Shown: positions 16,670-63,006 of the stretch, in pieces
How positions within the stretch are numbered: position 1 is the first letter of the stretch
Layout of the letters: each line of letters starts with the position of its first letter
Assembly: GCA_945875435.1 (NCBI GenBank)
Contig: CAMCKH010000002.1
Location: forward strand, 1-64,000
DNA length: 64,000 nt
Origin: an uncultured Erysipelotrichaceae bacterium
Lineage (GTDB): Bacteria > Bacillota_I > Bacilli_A > Erysipelotrichales > Erysipelotrichaceae
Reading direction: 5' to 3'
Position numbers and translations under genes: made by a program
Notes under the pieces: generated by a model
Told to the model about the DNA's origin: nothing
Seen by the model: the letters and a program-made list of their open reading frames with translations, nothing else
Database searches by the model: none

Positions 16670-17368
16670 GTGAACTTAAATGAATTTAAAAAAGAATTAG
16701 AAACTTACAAAATCAAAGTTAACGAATTGATGTTAGAACAATTTGATATCTATGCAAAAGAATTAATAAGTTATAACGAAAGAATTAACTTAACATCTAT
16801 CACAAATTATGAAGATATTATCGCAAAGCATTTTTTTGATTGTTTACTTCCTTTTAGTATGGTTAATTTCAAAAGCGATGATAAACTTGCGGATGTAGGT
16901 AGTGGTGCGGGTTTTCCTGGTTTAGTTTTAAAAATCGCTTTTCCCGAACTAAACATCACTTTAATTGAACCTACTTTAAAAAGATGTATTTTTTTAAAAC
17001 ATATAATTGATATTTTAAATTTAAAGAAAATAGAAATAATCAATGATAGAGTTGAAAATTTAAACAAATATAGACAAACTTTTGATTACGTAACCGCAAG
17101 AGCCGTATCTAACATAAGTGTGTTAAGTGAAATTTCCGCACCACTTTTAAAAATCAATGGAAATTTAATACTTTTGAGAGGGAAAGACGGTATTAACGAA
17201 TTAAAAGATGCACAAAATGCTTTTAAAATATTAAATTTAAGTGAAGTTATAACTAAAGAAATGAGTTATGAAAATAATCTTAGAATAAATTCAATTTATA
17301 AATTAACTAAAAAAATAGATTCAAAATACCCTAGAAATTATGGAGCAATTAAGAAAAAACCACTATGA
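16670..17368 (+). CDS. rsmG: 16S rRNA (guanine527-N7)-methyltransferase RsmG
   Basis: SAM-dependent methyltransferase that modifies G527 of 16S rRNA. Glycine-rich SAM motif VGSGAGFPGLVLKI, acidic loop IEPTLKRCIFL, and ARAVSNISVL are diagnostic of GidB/RsmG. The 232-residue length is typical. It starts with GTG, apparently without a leader. Its TGA overlaps the ATG of the following noc-like gene by four bases. The order rsmG-noc-soj-spo0J matches that near the Bacillus origin, but mnmE and mnmG do not precede it here; recG is divergent instead. Confidence 0.95.
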   Translation: MNLNEFKKELETYKIKVNELMLEQFDIYAKELISYNERINLTSITNYEDIIAKHFFDCLLPFSMVNFKSDDKLADVGSGAGFPGLVLKIAFPELNITLIEPTLKRCIFLKHIIDILNLKKIEIINDRVENLNKYRQTFDYVTARAVSNISVLSEISAPLLKINGNLILLRGKDGINELKDAQNAFKILNLSEVITKEMSYENNLRINSIYKLTKKIDSKYPRNYGAIKKKPL

Positions 17369-18105
17369 AAGAAATAAAAAAAATAAACATTAATTTAATT
17401 AAAGTTCCTAAAAAATATTATCGTAAACATAGCCAAAAAGAAATTGAAAAACTGTCTAAGCTAATTAAGAAAAATGGCTTACTACAACCAATAATTGTTA
17501 AAAGGTTAGATGATGGTTTTGAAATAATTGAAGGTAAAAAAAGGTTTTTTGCTTGCAGCCAAAATAACTTAAATGAAATTGATGTTATTATTGTTGAAAA
17601 TGATGAAGATTTTGATGATTTCAATTTAATAGAAGCTAATCAAAGTTCAGGTTTAAACCCTATAGAAGAAGCGTTGATTTACCAAAGAATAATAAATAAA
17701 GAAAACATCACTCAATCTGAACTCGCAAAAAAATTAAACCTTACCCAAGGAACCGTTGCGAATAAAATAAGATTATTAAAACTACCTGAATTTGTAAAAG
17801 ATTTAGTTGTAAATAATTTTTTAAGTGAAAGACACGCAAGAGCTTTGTTGAAGGTCAAAGATGAAGATTTAGAAAATGTATGCAATAAAATAATTGAAAA
17901 AAAATACACTGTAAAAGCTACGGAAAGTTATATTGAAAGACTTTATTCAAAAGAAATTCAGAAAGGTTATGTTGGGAATGTTTTAATAGGTATAAATACC
18001 ATTAAAGAAGCGTTTAGGCAATGTAAAAATTTAGGAATGGATTGCAACATAAATGAAGTTGAATATAAAAACGAAATAAAGTTAGTTATAAGATTTAAAA
18101 AATAG
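17365..18105 (+). CDS. noc: Noc-like ParB paralogue (nucleoid occlusion)
   Basis: ParB-family protein of 246 residues in the position of noc, between rsmG and soj. It has an N-terminal ParB domain (about 5-110), a helix-turn-helix in SELAKKLNLTQGTVANKIR (about 120-145) and a C-terminal region. In Bacillus, Noc binds DNA and membrane and keeps FtsZ off the nucleoid. The CTP-binding motifs are altered: GERRxRA reads GKKRFFA (57-63) and ENxQRxDL reads EANQSSGL (90-97), while the Spo0J in this cluster keeps both. It may therefore not work as a CTP-dependent clamp. Identity as Noc rests on synteny. Confidence 0.75.
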   Translation: MKEIKKININLIKVPKKYYRKHSQKEIEKLSKLIKKNGLLQPIIVKRLDDGFEIIEGKKRFFACSQNNLNEIDVIIVENDEDFDDFNLIEANQSSGLNPIEEALIYQRIINKENITQSELAKKLNLTQGTVANKIRLLKLPEFVKDLVVNNFLSERHARALLKVKDEDLENVCNKIIEKKYTVKATESYIERLYSKEIQKGYVGNVLIGINTIKEAFRQCKNLGMDCNINEVEYKNEIKLVIRFKK

Positions 18106-18112
18106 GAGGAAT

Positions 18113-18886
18113 ATGGGAAAAATAGTTGCGATAGCTAATCAGAAAGGGGGCGTTGGAAAAACTACCACCAGCATAAATTTAGCATCTGGATTAGCTTACT
18201 TAAATAAAAAAATACTTTTAATAGATTTAGATCCACAAGGAAATGCTACTCAAGGTCTTGGTTACACCATTAAACCTGATGATTTAACTGTTTATGACAT
18301 AATGCTTAATAATGCCTCTGTAAAAGAAGCTATAATTAAATTAAGAAGACCCCCTTTAAATTTACTGGCTACAAACATTAATCTAGCTGGTGCAGATTTA
18401 GAAATGGTTGATATTGAAAAAAGAGAAAGTATTTTAAAAAATAAACTATCAGAAATTAAAAATGATTATGATTTTATCATAATAGACTGCCCTCCTTCAC
18501 TCGGGCTTTTAAACACTAACGCTTTAACTGCTGCAGATAGTGTTATTATACCTGTTCAATGTGAATACTATGCACTGGAAGGAGTAACTCAACTTTTAAA
18601 TACCATAAAATTAGTTCAAAGGGTTTTTAATCCTAAATTAATAATTGAAGGAGTATTATTAACTATGTTTGATACCAGAACTAAATTATCAGTTGAAGTA
18701 GCCCAAGAAGTAAGAAAAGAATTTAGAGATATAACCTACACCACTCTTATCCCTAGAAATGTTCGTTTATCTGAATCTCCTTCTTTAGGACAATCAATTT
18801 TTGAATATGCTATAAATAGTGAAGGTGCAAAATCTTATATCGCCCTAGCAAAAGAATTCATAATCAGAAACAGCAAGGAGAAATAA
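18113..18886 (+). CDS. soj: ParA-family chromosome partitioning ATPase Soj
   Basis: Deviant Walker-type ATPase that works with Spo0J/ParB in origin segregation and control of replication initiation. The N-terminus IANQKGGVGKTTTSINLA is the ParA P-loop with the signature Lys, followed by LIDLDPQGNAT and FIIIDCPPSLGLLNTNAL. Full length at 257 residues. AGGAGG lies well placed before the ATG. It is followed two bases later by spo0J. Confidence 0.95.
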   Translation: MGKIVAIANQKGGVGKTTTSINLASGLAYLNKKILLIDLDPQGNATQGLGYTIKPDDLTVYDIMLNNASVKEAIIKLRRPPLNLLATNINLAGADLEMVDIEKRESILKNKLSEIKNDYDFIIIDCPPSLGLLNTNALTAADSVIIPVQCEYYALEGVTQLLNTIKLVQRVFNPKLIIEGVLLTMFDTRTKLSVEVAQEVRKEFRDITYTTLIPRNVRLSESPSLGQSIFEYAINSEGAKSYIALAKEFIIRNSKEK

Positions 18887-18887
18887 A

Positions 18888-19757
18888 ATGAGTAAAAACA
18901 AACAACGATTAGGAAAAGGTTTGAGTGCTATTTTCGGAGATAATTTTCAAGAGGTACTAAAAGATATTGAAAATGGTAATAGCACTTCAAACTCTACAAA
19001 TGAAATTAAAATTGAAGAAATTAGAAGTAATCCGTATCAACCAAGAAAAACATTTAACGAAGAAAGTTTAAAAGAACTTGCGATTTCTATCAAAGAACAC
19101 GGTGTTTTTCAGCCAATAATAGTTAGAAAAAGTGTTGTTGGTTATGAATTAATTAGTGGAGAGAGAAGAACTAGAGCTAGTAAAATCGCAGGTAAAGATA
19201 CAATACCAGCAATTATTGTAGATTTTGATGATAAGGCAATGATGGAAATTTCATTGCTAGAAAACATTCAAAGAGAAGACTTATCAATAATAGAAGAAGC
19301 TAAGGCCTATCAATCATTAATTAAAAATTTAAATTACACTCAAGAAGATTTATCTAATCGTATCGGTAAAAGTAGAACACACATCACCAATACATTAAGG
19401 TTGTTAAAATTACCTTATGAAATAATTGATATGTTAGAAAAAAATATTATTCCAGCCACTGCAGCTAGAACATTGTTATCTTTAAATGACAAAGATGAGA
19501 TGATAAAAGTTGCAGAAAAAGTAATCACAAACAACCTTAGCGTTAGAGAAATTGAAAAATTAGTAAATAATTTAAACAATCCAAAATCTCCAAAAAAAGT
19601 TAAAGAATTAGACTTAAATTTAAAATATGTAAAAGAAATTTTTGAAAATAAAATTCAAAGCAAAGTTGAAATAAACGAAAATAAAATAAGTTTCTACTTC
19701 AACAATAGCGATGATTTGAATAGAATTTTAGAAATTTTAAATATAATAGAAAAATAG
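18888..19757 (+). CDS. spo0J: Chromosome partitioning protein ParB/Spo0J
   Basis: DNA-binding CTPase that loads at parS and spreads as a sliding clamp. All ParB boxes are present: NPYQPR (48-53), GERRTRAS (91-98) and ENIQREDL (125-132), followed by a helix-turn-helix in DLSNRIGKSRTHITNTLR. Length 289. The ParB of this pair is intact, unlike the neighbouring Noc-like copy. I could not find a parS site in the window. The stop codon lies inside the terminator hairpin. Confidence 0.95.
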   Translation: MSKNKQRLGKGLSAIFGDNFQEVLKDIENGNSTSNSTNEIKIEEIRSNPYQPRKTFNEESLKELAISIKEHGVFQPIIVRKSVVGYELISGERRTRASKIAGKDTIPAIIVDFDDKAMMEISLLENIQREDLSIIEEAKAYQSLIKNLNYTQEDLSNRIGKSRTHITNTLRLLKLPYEIIDMLEKNIIPATAARTLLSLNDKDEMIKVAEKVITNNLSVREIEKLVNNLNNPKSPKKVKELDLNLKYVKEIFENKIQSKVEINENKISFYFNNSDDLNRILEILNIIEK

Positions 19758-19775: not shown

Positions 19776-20115
19776 AATCAAAGAAACAATAACCACAATA
19801 AATATATACTAAATATATAATATAACCTTTAAAACCGAGGGTATCTAAAATATTAATTATTTGTGGTGCTAAAATATAACCTAGTTCATAAAAAAGCAAG
19901 AATAAGACTATAAAAGAAATAACTAATTTTTTAAACCACTTTTGATTTTTATTACGATAAAAATAAGATAATGAAACTCCAAAATAGAAAAGTAATATAC
20001 ATCTTAAAATTATAATTATAAAATCATAGTTATCACTGATTACACCATCTAAAAATCTAAGCCCTATTGACATCATTAAAATTATAAACAAAGGGTAAAT
20101 ATATTTTTTAAACAT
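19774..20115 (-). CDS. Small integral membrane protein of unknown function
   Basis: About 113 residues with three or four hydrophobic segments separated by short basic loops such as RNKNQKWFKK. No family recognised. I start at ATG 20115 (MFKKYIYPL); GAGGTG inside the typA 3' end is at the right distance, and upstream ATG and GTG codons are too close to that site. It overlaps typA by eight bases, so it is probably co-translated with it. The C-terminus YCGYCFFD is rich in aromatic residues and Cys. Function not assigned. Confidence 0.6.
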   Translation of the reverse strand: MFKKYIYPLFIILMMSIGLRFLDGVISDNYDFIIIILRCILLFYFGVSLSYFYRNKNQKWFKKLVISFIVLFLLFYELGYILAPQIINILDTLGFKGYIIYLVYIYCGYCFFD

Positions 20116-21937
20116 TAACATCACCTCTTAAAGTTTTAGCATAGTTTTTTCTCTCCACAGCAGTTAAAAATTTCTTTCTAAGTCTAATTGCATCTGGTGT
20201 AACTTCAACCAATTCATCCTCTGCGATAAAATCTAACGCTTCCTCTAAACTAAGTATTTTTGCTGGAACTAATTTCATAGCCTCATCATTACCGCTAGAT
20301 CTTACTGCGGACATCGCTTTATTTTTAGTTGGATTAACTTCCATATCCATATTTTTATTAGTAACACCTATAATCATCCCTTCATAAACCTCATTTGCGG
20401 GTTCAATAAAAAGTTGACCTCTTTCTTGAATATTCCAAAGTGCATAAGTCATCGCTTTACCCTTGTCGCAAGAAATCAAAACACCATTATTTCTCAATGG
20501 TATTTCTCCAATAAATGGTTTGTAAGTTAAAAATTTTCTAACTAACACACCTTCACCTTTGGTGTCATTGATAAACTCACTACGATATCCAATAAGACCT
20601 CTTGTAGAAACAACATATATTATTTTTGTATAAGTCCCTTCATCTATAATATTGACCATATTACCTTTTCTTAAATTTAATTTGTTAATAACAGTACCAC
20701 TAAATTCATTCGGAACACTCACAACAACTTCTTCAAAAGGTTCATTAATAACACCATCAATAGTTTTAAAAATAACTTGAGGTTTACTTACTGCTACTTC
20801 AAAACCTTCTCTTCTCATATTTTCTAAAAGGATAGAAAGATGAAGCTCCCCTCTTCCAGAAACTTTAAAACAATCTGTTTTATCAGTTTCTTCAACCCTT
20901 AATCCTACATTTACTTCTAATTCTTTATCAAGTCTTTCTTTAATGTTTCTACTGGTAACATATTTTCCGCTTTTACCTTGAAACGGAGAAGAATTAACCA
21001 TAAAATTCATTGATAATGTAGGTTCTTCTATCTCGATTGAAGGAAGGGGCTCATTGGTTCCAAAATTACAAATAGTATCTCCAATATTTAAATCAGAAAT
21101 ACCACTAACTAGTACTATATCACCTGAAATAGCACTTTCAATAGAAACTCTGTTTAAACCTTGGTAATTAAATAGATTAGATATTTTATAATTTTTAAAT
21201 TTACCATCAACATTACATACACTTACCATACTATTGTTTTTTATAACACCTTTATAAACTCTTCCGATACCAATTCTACCAATATAATCATCATAAGCTA
21301 AGGCAGATATTTGCATTTTAAGATTTTCCTTTGTATAGTCTGGATAGTGATTGGTGTTTTTAATTATTGTTTCAAATAATGGTTTAATATCTTTATTTTC
21401 ATCATCTAAATTAAAGCGAACAATGCCCTCTCTTGCGATTCCGTATAATACTGTAAAATCCAATTGTTCATCATTAGCATTCAAATCAAGAAAAAGTTGA
21501 TAAACTTCATCAATAACCTCATTAACTCTAGCATCTTTTTTATCAATTTTATTAATTAAAAGTATAGGTTTTAAACCTTGGTTCAACGCTTTATTTAAAA
21601 CAAATCTTGTTTGAGGCATCGGACCTTCACTAGAATCTACCAATAATATAACAGTATCGACTGTTTTAATGATTCTTTCAACCTCACTACTAAAATCTGC
21701 GTGTCCAGGTGTATCTACAATATTAATTTTATAATCCAGATAATTAACACTACAATTTTTACTATAAATTGTGATTCCTCTTTCTTTTTCTAAATCATTA
21801 GAATCCATTACGCACTCAACGATTTCTTGGTGTTCTTTAAAAACTTTGCTTTGGGTTAAAAAAGCATCCACCAAGGTACTTTTACCAGCATCTACGTGAG
21901 CAATTACAGCTACATTAATAATTTTATTAAAATTCAT
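20108..21937 (-). CDS. typA: Translational GTPase TypA/BipA
   Basis: Ribosome-associated GTPase needed for ribosome assembly or translation under stress and cold. G1 AHVDAGKST, G2 near EKERGITI, G3 DTPGHADF, G4 NKID, then beta-barrel, EF-G-like and TypA-specific C-terminal domains (ESSGNDEAMKLVPAK is RSSGNDEAMKLVPAK here). Length 609 is typical. The family usually has HVDHGKTT in G1, so Ala replacing His is a deviation that also occurs in EF-G-like GTPases. TATAAT stands seven bases before the ATG inside the murD2 3' end, suggesting a near-leaderless internal transcript. Confidence 0.94.
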   Translation of the reverse strand: MNFNKIINVAVIAHVDAGKSTLVDAFLTQSKVFKEHQEIVECVMDSNDLEKERGITIYSKNCSVNYLDYKINIVDTPGHADFSSEVERIIKTVDTVILLVDSSEGPMPQTRFVLNKALNQGLKPILLINKIDKKDARVNEVIDEVYQLFLDLNANDEQLDFTVLYGIAREGIVRFNLDDENKDIKPLFETIIKNTNHYPDYTKENLKMQISALAYDDYIGRIGIGRVYKGVIKNNSMVSVCNVDGKFKNYKISNLFNYQGLNRVSIESAISGDIVLVSGISDLNIGDTICNFGTNEPLPSIEIEEPTLSMNFMVNSSPFQGKSGKYVTSRNIKERLDKELEVNVGLRVEETDKTDCFKVSGRGELHLSILLENMRREGFEVAVSKPQVIFKTIDGVINEPFEEVVVSVPNEFSGTVINKLNLRKGNMVNIIDEGTYTKIIYVVSTRGLIGYRSEFINDTKGEGVLVRKFLTYKPFIGEIPLRNNGVLISCDKGKAMTYALWNIQERGQLFIEPANEVYEGMIIGVTNKNMDMEVNPTKNKAMSAVRSSGNDEAMKLVPAKILSLEEALDFIAEDELVEVTPDAIRLRKKFLTAVERKNYAKTLRGDVNV

Positions 21938-21950
21938 AACTACTATTATA
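21938..21950 (-). promoter_or_regulatory. Near-leaderless promoter of typA (-10)
   Basis: TATAAT (21945-21950 on the minus strand) overlapping the murD2 stop codon, seven bases before the typA ATG. Confidence 0.45.
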
Positions 21951-23253
21951 CTACCATTTCTTCATTTAAACTAATTTTGTAAATATTTTTTTTGAAAAAA
22001 TTACCTCTGTCTGCGAAATCTTTAAAACTATCATAAGATGCACTTGCAGGCGAAAAAAGCACAATATCATTTTCTTTACTTATTTGAAAAGATAGTTTAA
22101 TAGCTTCAATTAAATCATTTACATAATAAACTTTTTTATTAACAAAATTATAACTATCATAAATTCTTTTGCCTGATCCATAAGTTAAAATGATATTTTT
22201 AAGTTCTTTATTTTTTTCAAGTTCCAAATGAAGTAAATCGTATGTGATACCTCTATCTAAACCACCTAAAATAACAGTTTTAACTTTAGCTAAAGCTTCA
22301 ATTCCTGCTAAAGTAGATTCAACACTAGTGCTAATTGAATCATTATAAAAATTAATACCATTAAATTTACCTACATATTCCAATCTATGATCTAAACTTT
22401 TAAAAGTCTTTAAATTTTCTATAAAATCATAATCGCTTAAAACAAAAATTTCTTTAATCAACGCATACACAAAAGCTATATTAATAAAATTATGTTTGCC
22501 AACTAATGAAATTGATACATCTGTAAGATCTAAACAATTATTTTTAAAATATATTACTTTATTTCTAATATCTATATCTTTGTTTAATAAATATATTGTA
22601 GATTTATCATTGATTATCTTTAAATTATCATTAATGAAAGTGTAACACTTATCATTTTGAAATCTATAAATATTTTCTTTAACACTCAAATAATTTAAAA
22701 ATGTTCCATATCTATCCAAATGCTCTTCATAACAATTTAAAAATATTGAAAATTTTGGACTTGTTTTCAAATATTGTAATTGATGGCAACTAAGTTCATA
22801 AATAATGTAAGTATCTGAATCAATCAAATCAATACTATCAAATACTGGTTTACCTATATTCCCAGCAAGTATAACATTCTTATACGTATTTTTAAGAATA
22901 TGATAAATCAATGAGGTGGTGGTGCTTTTTCCTTTAGTACCAGTAATTCCTATTGTTTGGTTTTGATAATATTTTAAAAATAATGATGTTTGACTTTCTA
23001 ATTTATCAAAATATTTAAAATCGTTTTTTAAATCAATTCCTGGAGATTTGATAATTATATCTACATCATTAAAAATATTTTTATCAGCAATAAAGATATT
23101 ATCGCTCAAAAAAGAAGTTAAATCAGCTTTATCATCAACCAAATAAATAAGGTTTGTGATGTTATGTTTTAATAAAAAGTTTAAAGTACTTTTTCCCTCT
23201 AAACCCATTCCATAAATTGCGATTGATTTATTTTTTAAATAATTTTGTAGCAT
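21946..23253 (-). CDS. murD2: UDP-N-acetylmuramoyl-L-alanine--L-glutamate ligase (MurD2-like)
   Basis: Mur-ligase-fold enzyme in the cytosolic steps of peptidoglycan synthesis: Rossmann domain with YGMGLEGKST, central ATPase domain with GITGTKGKST, and C-terminal domain with LDHRLEYVG and NDSISTSVEST. In classical MurD the last motif is NDSKATN; NDSIST is characteristic of MurD2, which adds L-Glu rather than D-Glu. The adjacent overlapping gene looks like MurL, the epimerase that acts on the MurD2 product. I start at ATG 23253 with AAGGA upstream. Classical MurD is the alternative; the L-Glu specificity is inferred from motif and partner. Confidence 0.8.
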   Translation of the reverse strand: MLQNYLKNKSIAIYGMGLEGKSTLNFLLKHNITNLIYLVDDKADLTSFLSDNIFIADKNIFNDVDIIIKSPGIDLKNDFKYFDKLESQTSLFLKYYQNQTIGITGTKGKSTTTSLIYHILKNTYKNVILAGNIGKPVFDSIDLIDSDTYIIYELSCHQLQYLKTSPKFSIFLNCYEEHLDRYGTFLNYLSVKENIYRFQNDKCYTFINDNLKIINDKSTIYLLNKDIDIRNKVIYFKNNCLDLTDVSISLVGKHNFINIAFVYALIKEIFVLSDYDFIENLKTFKSLDHRLEYVGKFNGINFYNDSISTSVESTLAGIEALAKVKTVILGGLDRGITYDLLHLELEKNKELKNIILTYGSGKRIYDSYNFVNKKVYYVNDLIEAIKLSFQISKENDIVLFSPASASYDSFKDFADRGNFFKKNIYKISLNEEMVV

Positions 23254-24532
23254 AATCAAATTCCTTTTTTAATAATCCAAAATAATAGTCTGACAAGTTT
23301 GCTTGATTTTTTATCACATAGCCATTAATAATATGGTGTTTGTTTTTATCTTTTAGATATGATTTCATTAAAAAACTATCCTGATAATCATCAGCAATAT
23401 CGTTTAAAGCCTGATTAATTTCATCATAAGTTCCAACACATTCAAAAGGCTTAACATCGCTTTTGCCATATAATTTTTCAAAATCCATCAATAAACTTTC
23501 TTTTTCTAATAAATTTTCACCAAAAATAACTATAAGTTCCTCTTTAGTCAAGAATGGTGCAAGCATTATAAAAATAAATAAGCATTTTGCACAATTATTA
23601 CACCATTTACCTTCTTTACTTTTTAAGTTACAAGATGTAAAAATGCTGTGATATTCTTTTTTTGTAGCAAAAATCTTAGCGATACTTAATTCATTTAAAG
23701 GTCTTAAAAAACTAAAATAATTCAAATCTGTATTTATTTTTGATTTAATAAAATGTCTAAAATCATTTTCAAATTCATATGACTTTGAATATTGATGATT
23801 AACATCGCTGCCTTTCACACTACTTTCATCAGCACTAGATTCGTTTGATAAAACAATATCTTTAACCCCATTAACTAAGGCGGTTAAGCTAGAGGCAAAA
23901 GCTACCATAGCACTAAATGGAGTATGTCCGTTATAAAATCCTAATTTATTATATTTAATAATTTTTTGATCTATTTTTCTTTCAATATTTATATAATTTA
24001 AGCCGCTTTTTTCAATGCAAGAAATAGCACTAGGTAATTTATTAATTAAAAATAATTCTGTTCCTATTTCTTTTTTTAATAACTCAATACTAACAACACT
24101 ATCTTTACCACCACCTACCGCTATAATCCTTCCTTCAAGTTTATATTTTTTTGATGGCAATTCTTTATTTATATCACTGCTTGTAAAATTAATATCTTCA
24201 TTAAATTTCAAATTATTTGTATAAAAAAACTCACCTAGACCTAGTCTCATTATTTTTTTAAAAAAATCAAATTCATCAACTGTAGTTTTTCTACAATCAA
24301 TATGGTAATTATCAGCAACAGTCAACTTATAAACAGATAACGATTCAATAAGTCCTAAATAAAAAATTAAATCATCAACTTCTTTAGTTAAATATTTGTT
24401 TTTATAAGGTATTTTGTAACTAGTTTGAAAATCATCTAATCCGACTATTTCAAATTCATAACAAATATTTAAAAATTTATCATCGTAACTATAACTATAA
24501 TTACGATATTTAAAATCATTGTACTTTTTCAT
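23228..24532 (-). CDS. murL: UDP-MurNAc-L-Ala-L-Glu epimerase (MurL-like)
   Basis: A 434-residue soluble protein with a PP-loop AVGGGKDSVVSIELL (residues 138-152), NGHTPFSA (201-208), LSNESSA (228-234), VNHQYSKSYEFE (244-255) and a Cys cluster WCNNCAKC (310-317). I recognise this set as that of MurL, which uses ATP to convert the terminal L-Glu of UDP-MurNAc-L-Ala-L-Glu to D-Glu, described in Xanthomonas with MurD2. The 26-base overlap with murD2 supports this strongly. If right, the cell may not need glutamate racemase for its wall. The ATG overlaps the stop of the phosphodiesterase gene (TAATG). Confidence 0.8.
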   Translation of the reverse strand: MKKYNDFKYRNYSYSYDDKFLNICYEFEIVGLDDFQTSYKIPYKNKYLTKEVDDLIFYLGLIESLSVYKLTVADNYHIDCRKTTVDEFDFFKKIMRLGLGEFFYTNNLKFNEDINFTSSDINKELPSKKYKLEGRIIAVGGGKDSVVSIELLKKEIGTELFLINKLPSAISCIEKSGLNYINIERKIDQKIIKYNKLGFYNGHTPFSAMVAFASSLTALVNGVKDIVLSNESSADESSVKGSDVNHQYSKSYEFENDFRHFIKSKINTDLNYFSFLRPLNELSIAKIFATKKEYHSIFTSCNLKSKEGKWCNNCAKCLFIFIMLAPFLTKEELIVIFGENLLEKESLLMDFEKLYGKSDVKPFECVGTYDEINQALNDIADDYQDSFLMKSYLKDKNKHHIINGYVIKNQANLSDYYFGLLKKEFDYATKLFKK

Positions 24533-24993
24533 TAAATGTCTACTCTTTTTACTTTTACATCTTCTTTTTCAATTTCAACCACTGCATAACAAGGATTGGT
24601 TAAATCTTTATTATACTTAACTGAACCAGGATTTATGAAATGGATATTATCTCTTTTAACATTAACATATCTATGAATATGGCCAAAAAACAATATATCG
24701 GCTTTTTTTTCTTTAGCAATAGGTAATAAAGTTTCAATTATTTCATCACCATATATCCATTTATGACCATGAACAATCACAATTTTTTTATTAACAACTG
24801 TAGTTTCTTCAATTAAATTAAAACTTAAATCACTATCAACATTACCTCTAACAACTAAAAAATCAGCTAATTCTTCTTTTTTCATTTCGCTATCGCCGCA
24901 ATGTATAAATAATTCAGCATCTTTGTGCACATCTTTTATTTTACTTAATACTTCTTTATTTCCGTGATTATCACTTACAACAACTATTTTCAT
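24532..24993 (-). CDS. YfcE/MJ0936-type metallophosphodiesterase
   Basis: Small calcineurin-fold phosphoesterase of 153 residues. Metal-binding motifs are in order: VSDNHG (Asp, His), HCGDSE (Asp), VRGNVD (Asn), VHGHKW (His) and FGHIHRY (GHxH). Related enzymes hydrolyse model phosphodiesters; the natural substrate is unknown. In Bacillus the relative YsnB lies directly after rdgB, and here too it is in the rdgB operon, separated by trmL and a VanY-like gene. It overlaps both neighbours by a few bases. Confidence 0.87.
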   Translation of the reverse strand: MKIVVVSDNHGNKEVLSKIKDVHKDAELFIHCGDSEMKKEELADFLVVRGNVDSDLSFNLIEETTVVNKKIVIVHGHKWIYGDEIIETLLPIAKEKKADILFFGHIHRYVNVKRDNIHFINPGSVKYNKDLTNPCYAVVEIEKEDVKVKRVDI

Positions 24994-25870
24994 CTAAAAA
25001 TACTTCCTTTAATGTTTTATTATATTTTTTTAAGTATAGGGCATTTTCCTTGCCGACATATCTATAGCTACTATCATTTCTTAAAATAAATCCATATAAA
25101 TAGCAATTATCATTAATAAATTTTTTAATCTCATCATCACTTCGATAACTTTTCAAATCAAACGCAAGACCTAATTGATATTCGCTATGACCAGGAATTA
25201 TTTCATCTGAATTTAAGTTAGAAATTTCTTCATAAGTCATAAAACCTCTGATTATACTATGATAACCACAATCTCTGCTATCAAATTTATCATCTATAAC
25301 TGCACAAAATTCTTTGAAATCATTGTAAAGAATTGTTCTTAATTTAATATCATCAGGATTATTTAAAAAATCTATAGTTGTGGTATCATTGTAAAATCTT
25401 GTAGAAATTCCGTATTGATCATCAACATAAGCTTTTAAATCATTAGGATTTTTAATTAAAAAAGTTCCATCATTTTTATTATAATAATCAAGAAGTTCAC
25501 TGTAGTAATATGAATCTAAAAATAATAAAACTTCTTCTTCATTTTTTTCTTTAACACTTTCATAAAAATTAATAACTTCAGCTTGATCTAGATAGTATAA
25601 TTTTTTTTGAAATTTTTCATATTTATCAAGATTGTAAATATTAAAATTATTATATTCTAATAACGGAATAAAATCGTTAGGGGCTATTGACCACTCAATG
25701 ATATAATTTATTTCAGATTCTGATAAATGCTTTTTAATTAATTCTTTTTTTTCTTCGCTTATTTTGTATGGATATCTTGATAAACTATCATAGCGAAAAT
25801 TCATAAAAATTAAACAAAAACAAGCAAATAAAAATATTAAAAAAATAAAAACTGAACTTTTTTTACTCAC
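24971..25870 (-). CDS. VanY-like (M15B) D,D-carboxypeptidase homologue, catalytically degenerate
   Basis: One N-terminal membrane helix (about 7-24) anchors an extracellular domain. The C-terminal third resembles VanY/M15B carboxypeptidases: IIRGFMTYEEI, PGHSEYQLGLAFD (226-238) and YGFILR with RYVG (259-273). Two key sites are missing. SEHxxGxAxD has Tyr 231 instead of the zinc-binding His, though Asp 238 remains. The EPWHFRYVG motif, which holds the catalytic Glu and last zinc His, reads NDSSYRYVG after a deletion of about 14 residues. I infer a pseudoenzyme that may still bind peptidoglycan stems. Start GTG, six bases after TATAAT. Confidence 0.75.
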   Translation of the reverse strand: MSKKSSVFIFLIFLFACFCLIFMNFRYDSLSRYPYKISEEKKELIKKHLSESEINYIIEWSIAPNDFIPLLEYNNFNIYNLDKYEKFQKKLYYLDQAEVINFYESVKEKNEEEVLLFLDSYYYSELLDYYNKNDGTFLIKNPNDLKAYVDDQYGISTRFYNDTTTIDFLNNPDDIKLRTILYNDFKEFCAVIDDKFDSRDCGYHSIIRGFMTYEEISNLNSDEIIPGHSEYQLGLAFDLKSYRSDDEIKKFINDNCYLYGFILRNDSSYRYVGKENALYLKKYNKTLKEVFLDENSCCK

Positions 25871-58362: not shown

Positions 58363-59841
58363 TCAGATATAATCTTTAACCATAAAAGTTATTTTTTTAT
58401 TTTTAAATGATGAATATTTAAAAGTTCCAATTAAACTTTGAATGTTTTCGTAATTAAAACATCTATTAAAATAAATAGCTTCCATTCCGTTTGATAATTT
58501 CCATTTAGAATAAATTTTTTTGATTAAAAAATGATTTTCTACCTCTATATTATTTATTTTAAATTTAACTTCATTAAAATCTGTTCCAAAAGGTTTTAAA
58601 CTTTCAATAATATCTACAATATCTGAAGTTATATCTTCCTGATTTATTTCAATATAATTTTCTACATCTTCTTTAATTAAAACCTTATTGTTTTCAATAT
58701 AATTTATTAAATCATTTAATTTTATTTTATCCATACTTAAACCTAGTGCTTTTTTATGTCCACCGATAGATTTAAAAATATCTAATGATTTAAAATATTC
58801 ATAAATATCAAAATCACCGTAACTTCTTCCACTTCCTTTTATAGTATCTTCATTATCACTTAAAACAATTACAGGTTTTTTATAGTTTTCGCTTAATTTG
58901 TTTGCTATTAAACCACACAATCCTTCTTTGATATCAGCGTTGTAAATAACTTCAATAAAATTTTTACTTTTAATTCTTTTATTTAATTTTTCAATTAATT
59001 CGCTTGTAATATGTTTTCTTTGTTTATTAATTTCTTTAATAATATCAGAATAAATCAAAAATTCATTATCATCATCATATAGAAAATATTCAACCAACTT
59101 ATTAACATTACCTATTCCCATTCTACTGATGGCATTTATTTTTGGTCCGATTTCAAAACTTATACTATCGTAATCAAAATCTTTTTCCAACAACTTATAG
59201 ATACTTGGATATTTATTTTTTTTAATTATTTCATGTCCTTTTTTAATTATTTTTCTATTGTAATTTAAAACACTCATCATATCAGAAATCATACCTATAG
59301 ATGCTAAGGCTAGATTGTATTCATCTTTAAAAAAATAGTTAGATAAAATTAAAGATAGCCCTGCTGCACTTAAATTACGGTACTTATCTTCAAGTGTGTT
59401 GCTATGAATAAAAAAATCAACATCAGGCTTTTCTTCATATTGATGATGATCGATAATAGCAATTTTAATATTATTATTCCTAGCGTATGAAATCGCATCT
59501 TTAGCTTTTACTCCGTTATCAACACAAATAACCAATTCAAAATGATTAATAGCTTTTTTTAATATTTCTACATTTAAACCATAACCTTCTTTATACCTAT
59601 CAGGAATATAGTATTTAGTAATCACATTCAATTTCTTTAACAACCTTACCAAAATAGCAGTACTTGTGATTCCATCCGCATCATAATCACCCACAACCAA
59701 CACATTACCTTTGATATTTTTAAGATAGTTACACAATGATATAAATTCTTCATTATCACTGTAATCATAATCATAACTGCTGTCGTTTAATTTAATTAAA
59801 TCTTCACTATTCAAATTATAATGCTTTAATATCGCATCCAT
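58363..59841 (-). CDS. recJ: RecJ-like single-strand DNA exonuclease (short form)
   Basis: DHH-family 5' to 3' exonuclease. Motifs: GDYDADGITS (about 53-62), CVDNG, and IDHHQYEE, where His-His is the DHH motif, then a DHHA1 region with IGGHKKALGLSM. About 492 residues, shorter than the 570-780 of typical RecJ: the C-terminal OB region is short. Gene order recJ-apt is that of Bacillus. It overlaps the mraY stop (TGATG). Confidence 0.88.
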   Translation of the reverse strand: MDAILKHYNLNSEDLIKLNDSSYDYDYSDNEEFISLCNYLKNIKGNVLVVGDYDADGITSTAILVRLLKKLNVITKYYIPDRYKEGYGLNVEILKKAINHFELVICVDNGVKAKDAISYARNNNIKIAIIDHHQYEEKPDVDFFIHSNTLEDKYRNLSAAGLSLILSNYFFKDEYNLALASIGMISDMMSVLNYNRKIIKKGHEIIKKNKYPSIYKLLEKDFDYDSISFEIGPKINAISRMGIGNVNKLVEYFLYDDDNEFLIYSDIIKEINKQRKHITSELIEKLNKRIKSKNFIEVIYNADIKEGLCGLIANKLSENYKKPVIVLSDNEDTIKGSGRSYGDFDIYEYFKSLDIFKSIGGHKKALGLSMDKIKLNDLINYIENNKVLIKEDVENYIEINQEDITSDIVDIIESLKPFGTDFNEVKFKINNIEVENHFLIKKIYSKWKLSNGMEAIYFNRCFNYENIQSLIGTFKYSSFKNKKITFMVKDYI

Positions 59842-60800
59842 CATAAATACATACCTATTAAAAATCCAATCAATGAAGTTATAAAAGTTATTTTATAAAA
59901 CATCAATACCACATTTTTTTCCTTCATTCCTTTTTTTGAAAAACTATAATGAATTGGAGTATATAAAAATATTCTTTTCTTAAATGTTTTAACCCAAAAT
60001 ATTTGAATTATTACACTAAGCATTTCCCATAAATAAGTAGCACCGATAAAAAGTAATAAAATTTCAACTTTTAAAACAACACTAATTATTACAAGCAAAG
60101 CACCTAAAGCAATAGATCCACTATCTCCCATAAATATTTTTGCTGGAAAAAAATTAAATTTTAAATAACCAATCAAAGCTGAAATAACTAAAATTATTAT
60201 TAATAAAATTTCAAATTCATTTTTTAAATACGCAATTATCCCGAAAAAAAACAAACTAATACTAACACATCCCGCACAAAGCCCATCCATTCCATCAGTA
60301 AAATTTACAGCATTTGTTTCTCCTGTAAACATAATCAAAAGAAATATCGGATATAAATAACCAAGGTTGATGTCATGATTTAAAAATGGTAATTTGATTA
60401 TAAAACTCAAATTATCTTTAAGTAGTAAAAAAATTATTACAGAGGCTATTATTTGTAAAAAAAGTTTCTTTTTCGCATTAAGACCTGTATTATCATTATG
60501 TCTAATAATTAAGTAATCATCTAAAAAACCAATTAAACCAAATAAAAAATATGTTACTAAAATTACTAAAATTTTAGGATTAAAAAGTAAATTAAATTTA
60601 AAAATCAAAATAATTAAAATAGGAATCAAGATAAAAATGACACCTCCCATAATAGGTGTCTTATCTTTTTCTTTAAAATCATTCAGTGCATATTCAGAAA
60701 CTTTTTGATTAAAACCTATTTTTTTTAAAAAAACAATATATTTAGGCATTAATAAAACTACTGCTAAAAAACTTAAAATCGCAAAAAACAAATATTCCAT
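59841..60800 (-). CDS. mraY: Phospho-N-acetylmuramoyl-pentapeptide transferase MraY
   Basis: Ten-helix membrane enzyme that makes lipid I from UDP-MurNAc-pentapeptide and undecaprenyl phosphate. 319 residues from ATG 60800 with AAGGTGA upstream. GFLDDYLI holds the Asp pair, NAVNFTDGMDGL and FMGDSGSIALGA follow. The third site, usually PIHHHxExxG, reads PIHYSFSKKG: His 284 is kept but the next two His are Tyr 285 and Ser 286. Position after pbp supports MraY, not TagO or WecA. Confidence 0.9.
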   Translation of the reverse strand: MEYLFFAILSFLAVVLLMPKYIVFLKKIGFNQKVSEYALNDFKEKDKTPIMGGVIFILIPILIILIFKFNLLFNPKILVILVTYFLFGLIGFLDDYLIIRHNDNTGLNAKKKLFLQIIASVIIFLLLKDNLSFIIKLPFLNHDINLGYLYPIFLLIMFTGETNAVNFTDGMDGLCAGCVSISLFFFGIIAYLKNEFEILLIIILVISALIGYLKFNFFPAKIFMGDSGSIALGALLVIISVVLKVEILLLFIGATYLWEMLSVIIQIFWVKTFKKRIFLYTPIHYSFSKKGMKEKNVVLMFYKITFITSLIGFLIGMYL

Positions 60801-60801
60801 C

Positions 60802-63006
60802 TCATTCACCTTCTTCACTAATGCTTTCTTCTTTTTGTTTTTCTTTATAAATATCACTAAGAACAACTTCTAGTATATCATTATTTTGAATAATAGTATC
60901 TGTTAAAATACTTTGAGACACTACTAACCCTTGACCTTTAATGACCACATTAAGATTAGTGATAGACCAAAAATCTGTAATTTCTTTTCTACTCCAATTT
61001 GAAAAATCAAGTGCCTTAATATCGTTATAACTTGTTAAAAGAAATATTTTTTCATTACTATAAAGATTATCATTAGCTTTAGGTAATTGATCAATAACGC
61101 TTTTTCCGTTACCTAAAATCACAACTTCACTATCAATTCCATTTAACTTTTCACTAATTTTATCAATTTTAGTATTAACAAGGTTAGGCATTTTGTATTC
61201 AAAAACTTCCTTAACACCCTCTTCAATTTGTTCCTTCTTATAATTAACTTCTAAAATTTTAGTAACTTTCTGTAATAAATTAGTAACTGGATGGTTGGTG
61301 TAATGAGGAGTCCAGCCAAAATGAGCTTTTGTAGCATAATAAAGCATATATTTTGGTTTATCTGCTGGAAATCCAATAATTACTGACGCGATTTCATTTT
61401 CGCTATCATAACCCCCTTCCGGTAAGGCTATTTGGCTAGTACCGGTTTTAGCAATAATATCAACACCTTCAACACTATAACCTTGACCAGTACCATATTC
61501 TGCACTAACTACTCTACCCATTAATTCTTGCAGTGTCTTAGCACTAGCTTCGCTAATCGGTTTATTCACAACGCTATGTTGGTGATTATAAACAACTTCA
61601 CCATTGCCATTAACTATTTTTTCAACAAAATAAGGTTTTATCATATCACCATTGCCAAACATTGCTGTATAGGCTTGAATTATGTGAAGCATTGTAGTAC
61701 TTATACTATGACCGAAAGTCATATTTAATTTTTCACTAGCCCATTCATAATTATGTTGACCTATTTCTTCAGCTACACCATCTGTATCTACATAATCGAA
61801 AAAACCAAATTTCTTAACATATTCATAAAAATTATCCACTCCAACATAATCAACTAAAAGTGTGCTAGTAGCAACGTTACTTGATCTTATTAAACCATCA
61901 TCAATAGGAATACTTCCCCAAGAACCTCTTAAAGCATTATCAACACAACCATAAGAATAACCATAGGTTCTAGTAGGATTGCCATTGCTATCAGAGATAT
62001 AACAAAAACTTTCTGAATTAAATTCATTATTACCATTATAAGTACCAAGATCCATAGCAGCGACATAAACTATTGACTTAAAAACTGAACCAGGTTCATA
62101 TGTGTATTGACTACCCTTATTAGTATAATCTTTTATTTCCAAAATATTATTATCAAAGCTAGGATATTGACCCCAAGCTAAAATTCTTCCAGTATCTACT
62201 TCCGCAACACTAGCCCAAACATCACTAGCTCCAAATTGTTTCACAGATTCTTCTAAAGCAATATTTAATGCTTCTTGTATGCCTTTATCTATAGTTAAAT
62301 AAAGATCATTACCATCTTTAGCTTCAACTATTTCTTTCTTCATTCCAGGCAAAATATAACCATCTTTATCTGCTTGAAAAGACTCATAACCATCTTCACC
62401 GGTAAGATATGAATTATAAGAATATTCTATCCCCATCTTTCCAATCAAATTGTTTTTTTCATTTGCCTGAGCATAACCTACAATATAAGGTGCAAAATTT
62501 GTTAAGGGATAATTTCTTTTTCTAGTACTTCTAAATTCAATTCCATTCAGTTTATATTCTTCAATTTTTTCTTTTACTTCTTTTGAAATTCCTTTTCCAT
62601 AAATTCCTAATTCTGTTTGATATACTCCCTGTTTTGAAAGTAAAGCAAAAAGTTCGCTTTCTTCAGCCTTCAAAATATCCGCAAGTATTTTTGCAGTTTT
62701 TAAAGGATCATCTACATAAGCGATTTTTTCACCATTGGAAATTCTATTTTTATCCAATATCGCAATTATATCGTAAGCTACAATATCTTGAGCTACAATT
62801 ATTCCGTTTCTATCAAGAATATTTCCTCTTTTTGCAATAATTTTGTTCTCAACCAAATTAGATTCATCTACATAGGGTTTCAAATCTGTACCACTTCTTA
62901 AATGATATTTAAAAACGGACACAAAAAGAATATTAACAGTAATGACTGTAAATATTATTAATATTGTTACGAAAATAATTTTTAAAAAATTATTTTTAAT
63001 TTTCAT
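60802..63006 (-). CDS. Division transpeptidase (PBP2B/FtsI-type) with PASTA tail
   Basis: Class B penicillin-binding protein, 734 residues, that crosslinks septal peptidoglycan. One membrane helix (about 9-31), PBP dimer domain, transpeptidase domain with active Ser 307 in EPGSVFK, SSN at 375-377 and KTGTS at 520-524, then about two C-terminal PASTA domains. Place between ftsL and mraY is that of ftsI/pbpB. It ends with an acidic tail and TGA overlapping the mraY ribosome-binding site. Confidence 0.94.
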   Translation of the reverse strand: MKIKNNFLKIIFVTILIIFTVITVNILFVSVFKYHLRSGTDLKPYVDESNLVENKIIAKRGNILDRNGIIVAQDIVAYDIIAILDKNRISNGEKIAYVDDPLKTAKILADILKAEESELFALLSKQGVYQTELGIYGKGISKEVKEKIEEYKLNGIEFRSTRKRNYPLTNFAPYIVGYAQANEKNNLIGKMGIEYSYNSYLTGEDGYESFQADKDGYILPGMKKEIVEAKDGNDLYLTIDKGIQEALNIALEESVKQFGASDVWASVAEVDTGRILAWGQYPSFDNNILEIKDYTNKGSQYTYEPGSVFKSIVYVAAMDLGTYNGNNEFNSESFCYISDSNGNPTRTYGYSYGCVDNALRGSWGSIPIDDGLIRSSNVATSTLLVDYVGVDNFYEYVKKFGFFDYVDTDGVAEEIGQHNYEWASEKLNMTFGHSISTTMLHIIQAYTAMFGNGDMIKPYFVEKIVNGNGEVVYNHQHSVVNKPISEASAKTLQELMGRVVSAEYGTGQGYSVEGVDIIAKTGTSQIALPEGGYDSENEIASVIIGFPADKPKYMLYYATKAHFGWTPHYTNHPVTNLLQKVTKILEVNYKKEQIEEGVKEVFEYKMPNLVNTKIDKISEKLNGIDSEVVILGNGKSVIDQLPKANDNLYSNEKIFLLTSYNDIKALDFSNWSRKEITDFWSITNLNVVIKGQGLVVSQSILTDTIIQNNDILEVVLSDIYKEKQKEESISEEGE

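Follow-up and report, generated by a model that had tools for sequence, protein, structure and literature searches.

Bacteria using the canonical route to the D-glutamate (D-Glu) of the cell wall make the free amino acid with MurI and attach it with a MurD ligase carrying D182, K319 and K348 (positions in MurD are numbered throughout on the E. coli enzyme by alignment). Another route is known from Xanthomonas, where MurD2 uses L-glutamate (L-Glu) and MurL acts as the epimerase. Two reviews, one from 2021 (PMC8788868) and one from 2018 (PMC5808125), give both reactions as known, with turnover of ATP to AMP and conversion in one direction only, from L to D. In X. oryzae, a MurD-like ligase adjoins MurL (XOO_1320/XOO_1319), and orthologues of this pair have been assayed in Micromonospora and Salinispora. 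Here we describe a similar predicted pair in a 64,000-nucleotide (nt) stretch of DNA from an uncultured Erysipelotrichaceae bacterium (contig CAMCKH010000002.1, positions 1 to 64,000; ‘the window’). We are highly confident, on the sequence evidence below, that these genes are the only visible source of peptidoglycan D-Glu in the organism, which very likely makes its wall D-Glu in this way. By analogy with the Xanthomonas enzymes, MurD2 would attach L-Glu to the cell-wall precursor and MurL would then epimerise the precursor-bound L-Glu to D-Glu.

Both genes are encoded on the minus strand, which an earlier note on the window had not specified. The murL gene (24532–23228) encodes a product of 434 amino acids and murD2 (23253–21946) one of 435. 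The best murD2 start is the ATG at 23253, which has AAAGGA 8 nt upstream, rather than the TTG at 23259 chosen by the ORF finder; the stop is at 21946. The earlier note had recognised an overlap between a MurL-like gene and a Mur ligase gene, and this proved to be 26 nt long. The three motifs on which it had based the MurL assignment were all located in the product: VGGGKDS at residues 139–145, NHQYSK at 245–250 and WCNNCAKC at 310–317. The resemblance to X. oryzae extends to the absence of both MurI and a D-amino-acid aminotransferase. Unlike that system, the pair lies in a very low-GC genome (25–27% in the window) of only 1.17 Mb (G000, 96% complete), beside VanY-like, yfcE and typA genes.

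The best match of the murL product among all families was to NF041275 (UDP-N-acetyl-alpha-D-muramoyl-L-alanyl-L-glutamate epimerase), with E=1.7e-84 and 283.9 bits over residues 46–381 (model positions 51–395 of 447). The runner-up, NAD synthase, scored 17.5 bits, so the concern that this protein might belong to some other family was not borne out. We aligned 16 MurL homologues, drawn from the organism's own clade, Clostridia- and Lachnospiraceae-named metagenome-assembled genomes (MAGs), Bacteroidales, Saprospiraceae, Lentimicrobium and Lysobacterales. Across these, 61 residues are invariant, including those of GGGKDS, SNExSA (SNESSA in the window), NHQYSKS, SCN, WCxxCxKC and KPFEC. The GGGKDS motif resembles the SGGxDS loop of PP-loop ATP pyrophosphatases (NAD synthase, QueC, MnmA/NcsA and argininosuccinate synthase), which share the ATP-to-AMP chemistry of MurL and to several of which there are weak profile matches, although their substrates and reactions differ and no sequence or fold match is confident. 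In the AlphaFold model, which is itself confident (pLDDT 89.3, pTM 0.89), a strand precedes and a helix follows GGGKDS, as in PP-loop enzymes. The motif and this order of strands and helices suggest that MurL is a PP-loop enzyme with the loop as its putative adenylation site, which would account for its turnover of ATP to AMP. Searches with the MurL sequence gave no match in the PDB up to E=1 and none above threshold in Pfam, where only DUF6395 and QueC appeared weakly. The authors of PMC8788868 reported no known conserved domain for MurL.

The window MurD2 belongs to the same Mur-ligase family as canonical MurD (TIGR01087, 294 bits, E=2.2e-87, cut-off 211.95). Canonical MurDs scored 330–407 bits against this model and MurL-linked MurD2s 275–304. 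In place of the canonical C-terminal NDSKATN, the protein has YNDSISTS, a difference that the earlier note had picked out; we found in addition that D182 is replaced by E and K348 by R, as in MurD2 (motifs EEHLDRY and GGLDRG), with I at K319. As reviewed in PMC8788868, the residues equivalent to 182 and 348 in Xanthomonas MurD2 (E197 and R358) determine the use of L-Glu, reverting both turns the enzyme to D-Glu, and E. coli MurD K319T accepts L-Glu. Among 22 MurL-linked MurD2s, E182 was present in 20, I319 in 21 (the other having L) and R348 in all, K319 was never seen and 19 had the full E/I/R set. The two with D182 came from a Lachnospiraceae-named MAG and G327. Related genomes supplied 28 canonical MurDs, all with D/K/K, as in E. 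coli. Because MurD2s and canonical MurDs separate in the tree (98% SH-aLRT support), with the window protein among the MurL-linked MurD2s, the murD of this organism looks to have been replaced rather than edited in place. The residues at 182, 319 and 348 offer a simple sequence test for the D-Glu route of a genome.

One alternative is that residues have drifted in what is still a conventional MurD adding D-Glu, with D-Glu salvaged from the walls of neighbours and the PP-loop protein serving another role. Salvage is frequent in reduced genomes, and R348 alone is not diagnostic, because Streptococcus mutans MurD has R at this position yet physiologically uses D-Glu (PMC8788868). However, all three positions have changed together and track MurL across phyla, the MurL match is strong, and MurL and MurI are mutually exclusive (below). 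We therefore regard drift with salvage as very unlikely. The residues and the NF041275 match instead support the division of labour between MurD2 and MurL that the earlier note had proposed.

No other source of D-Glu was found in the genome. MurI (Asp/Glu racemase) gave no match by PF01177 or TIGR00067, in line with the suggestion that free D-Glu from this enzyme might be dispensable. There was also no class-IV aminotransferase (PF01063), and hence no D-amino-acid transaminase, and the genome has a single MurD; the combination of a second canonical murD with murI, on which the proposal might have foundered, is thus absent in both its parts. The genome does have MurC, MurE, MurF, MraY, Ddl, a penicillin-binding protein and one alanine-racemase-type gene (Ala_racemase_N). 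As the rest of the wall pathway is present, a wall containing D-Glu is to be expected. Where such a pair replaces MurI, the absence of murI does not imply D-Glu auxotrophy.

We then compared the occurrence of MurL and MurI across the family and order (98 genomes). MurL occurs in seven, including the source genome, always without MurI; MurI was found in 85 of the 91 MurL-negative genomes and not in the other 6 (Fisher p=1.2e-7). The wider phylum, represented by 392 sampled genomes, yielded 13 strong matches to MurL, in the same family (f1) and a second one (f11); six further matches in this sample, with E ∼1e-4 and internal stops, were rejected as noise. Over both surveys, all 14 MurL-positive genomes lack MurI and carry murD2 immediately after murL. 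Given the two profile matches in the window and this conserved adjacency, the pairing is not due to chance.

Two other genomes stood out. A Bacteroidales MAG (L004:2278–3642) has murL without murD2 in a locus of 8.5 kb, whereas the other MurL loci that extend past murL have murD2. G006, a family f1 genome in a single 3.9-Mb contig, has MurI and no MurD match at E<=1e-60, its best Mur ligase scoring 6.0e-25.

The chemistry of the route was already known; what is added here is a new clade, a signature in the sequence, the mutual exclusion with MurI and relatives that have MurD2 without MurL. The 2021 review (PMC8788868) describes the route as restricted to rather few genera and places it in Gammaproteobacteria, Alphaproteobacteria and rare actinobacteria. 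The 2018 review (PMC5808125) names Gamma- and Alphaproteobacteria and actinobacteria as well, and adds orthologues of low similarity in cyanobacteria, a fungal plant pathogen and an amoeba. Neither names Bacillota or Bacteroidota in the passages concerned, and the distribution is new only as measured against the searchable open literature. Replacement of MurI in a low-GC clade, together with the presence of the route in Bacteroidota MAGs, points to a wider alternative route, which makes it less attractive as a target for narrow-spectrum drugs.

Several results weigh against the interpretation given above. The MurL score lies below the curated NF041275 cut-off of 700 bits, by which the protein is no equivalog of that family. 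The cut-off seems to mark a Xanthomonadales subgroup rather than the enzyme, since the model bears the name of Xanthomonadales and the MurL of a Lysobacterales MAG, encoded beside MurD2, also falls short, at 460.5 bits. Foldseek of the MurL model against the PDB returned generic Rossmann-like folds (best E=0.023), leaving the PP-loop fold unconfirmed and its assignment an inference. The MurL-positive genomes are kin, so the Fisher p overstates their independence, although MurL is borne by three separate lines (f1, f11 and the proteobacteria). At 96% completeness MurI could have been lost from the assembly by chance, though hardly in 14 genomes. Finally, G031 and G075 carry a MurD2-type MurD without MurL or MurI, so the link between MurD2 and MurL can break. 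That the MurL homologue does not epimerise a UDP-linked substrate might be argued from the ∼35% identity to a Lysobacterales MurL and from 284 bits against a cut-off of 700, but the lack of another D-Glu source, the tight linkage to murD2 and the 61 invariant positions make this very improbable.

The six genomes of the 98 with neither MurI nor MurL fall into three pairs. G016 and G055 (family f1, 98–99% complete) gave no match to MurD, MurI, MurL or PF01063 and probably lack a wall, although their family is a walled one. The MurD of G013 and G090 is of the canonical D/K/K type; as these assemblies are 68% and 92% complete, MurI is probably just missing from them. The residue test brings out the third pair as relatives with neither known source of D-Glu: the MurD2-type MurD has E/I/R in G031 (L061 11173–9881, also L028) and D/I/R in G075 (L062 9435–8248). 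Profile searches for MurL in both found none, the best in G031 being a 13-bit fragment. The G031 genome is complete as one contig of 1.5 Mb. In its congener G383 (L100) the order is secDF-HAD-murL-murD2-recJ and in G031 it is secDF-HAD-murD2-recJ, murL having gone without trace from exactly between HAD and murD2; the HAD gene of G031 is frameshifted. G334, of the same genus (g32), also lacks MurL and MurI. Tentatively, an L-Glu-type MurD2 might act without MurL and MurI in G031, G075 and probably G334, with D-Glu supplied by an epimerase or other source that has yet to be described, or with L-Glu occupying position 2 in the wall.

The pair lies in a tightly packed minus-strand run in the order rdgB, trmL, VanY-like carboxypeptidase, yfcE, murL, murD2 and typA. 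The stop of the yfcE-type metallophosphoesterase gene (24532–24993; TIGR00040, E=8.1e-25) overlaps the murL start (TAATG), and typA/bipA (20108–21937; TIGR01394, E=2.6e-253), a translational GTPase gene, follows murD2 by 8 nt. In a scan of the murL–murD2 region, promoter matches did not exceed those in shuffled sequences and no terminator was found. The VanY/LdcB-like D-alanine carboxypeptidase gene (24971–25870, minus strand) is a weak match (NF000473, E=1.2e-6); a homologue lies directly 5′ of murL in the relatives G010 and G049 (L055 and L060), and a functional link to wall trimming is possible. In several relatives murL–murD2 is located between the mraY/secDF region and recJ, whereas in the window recJ directly follows mraY (59841–60866, minus strand; TIGR00445, E=4.6e-68). 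A class B penicillin-binding protein of the PBP2X/SpoVD type is encoded at 60802–63006 (minus strand; NF038271, E=8.3e-101); together with the low GC content, it suggests that the organism is a Gram-positive-type (Bacillota-like) bacterium. By eye only, two ParB-like proteins appear to flank a Soj-like ParA (17365–18105, 18113–18886 and 18888–19757), with a possible rsmG at 16670–17368 beside them, a typical origin-proximal set.
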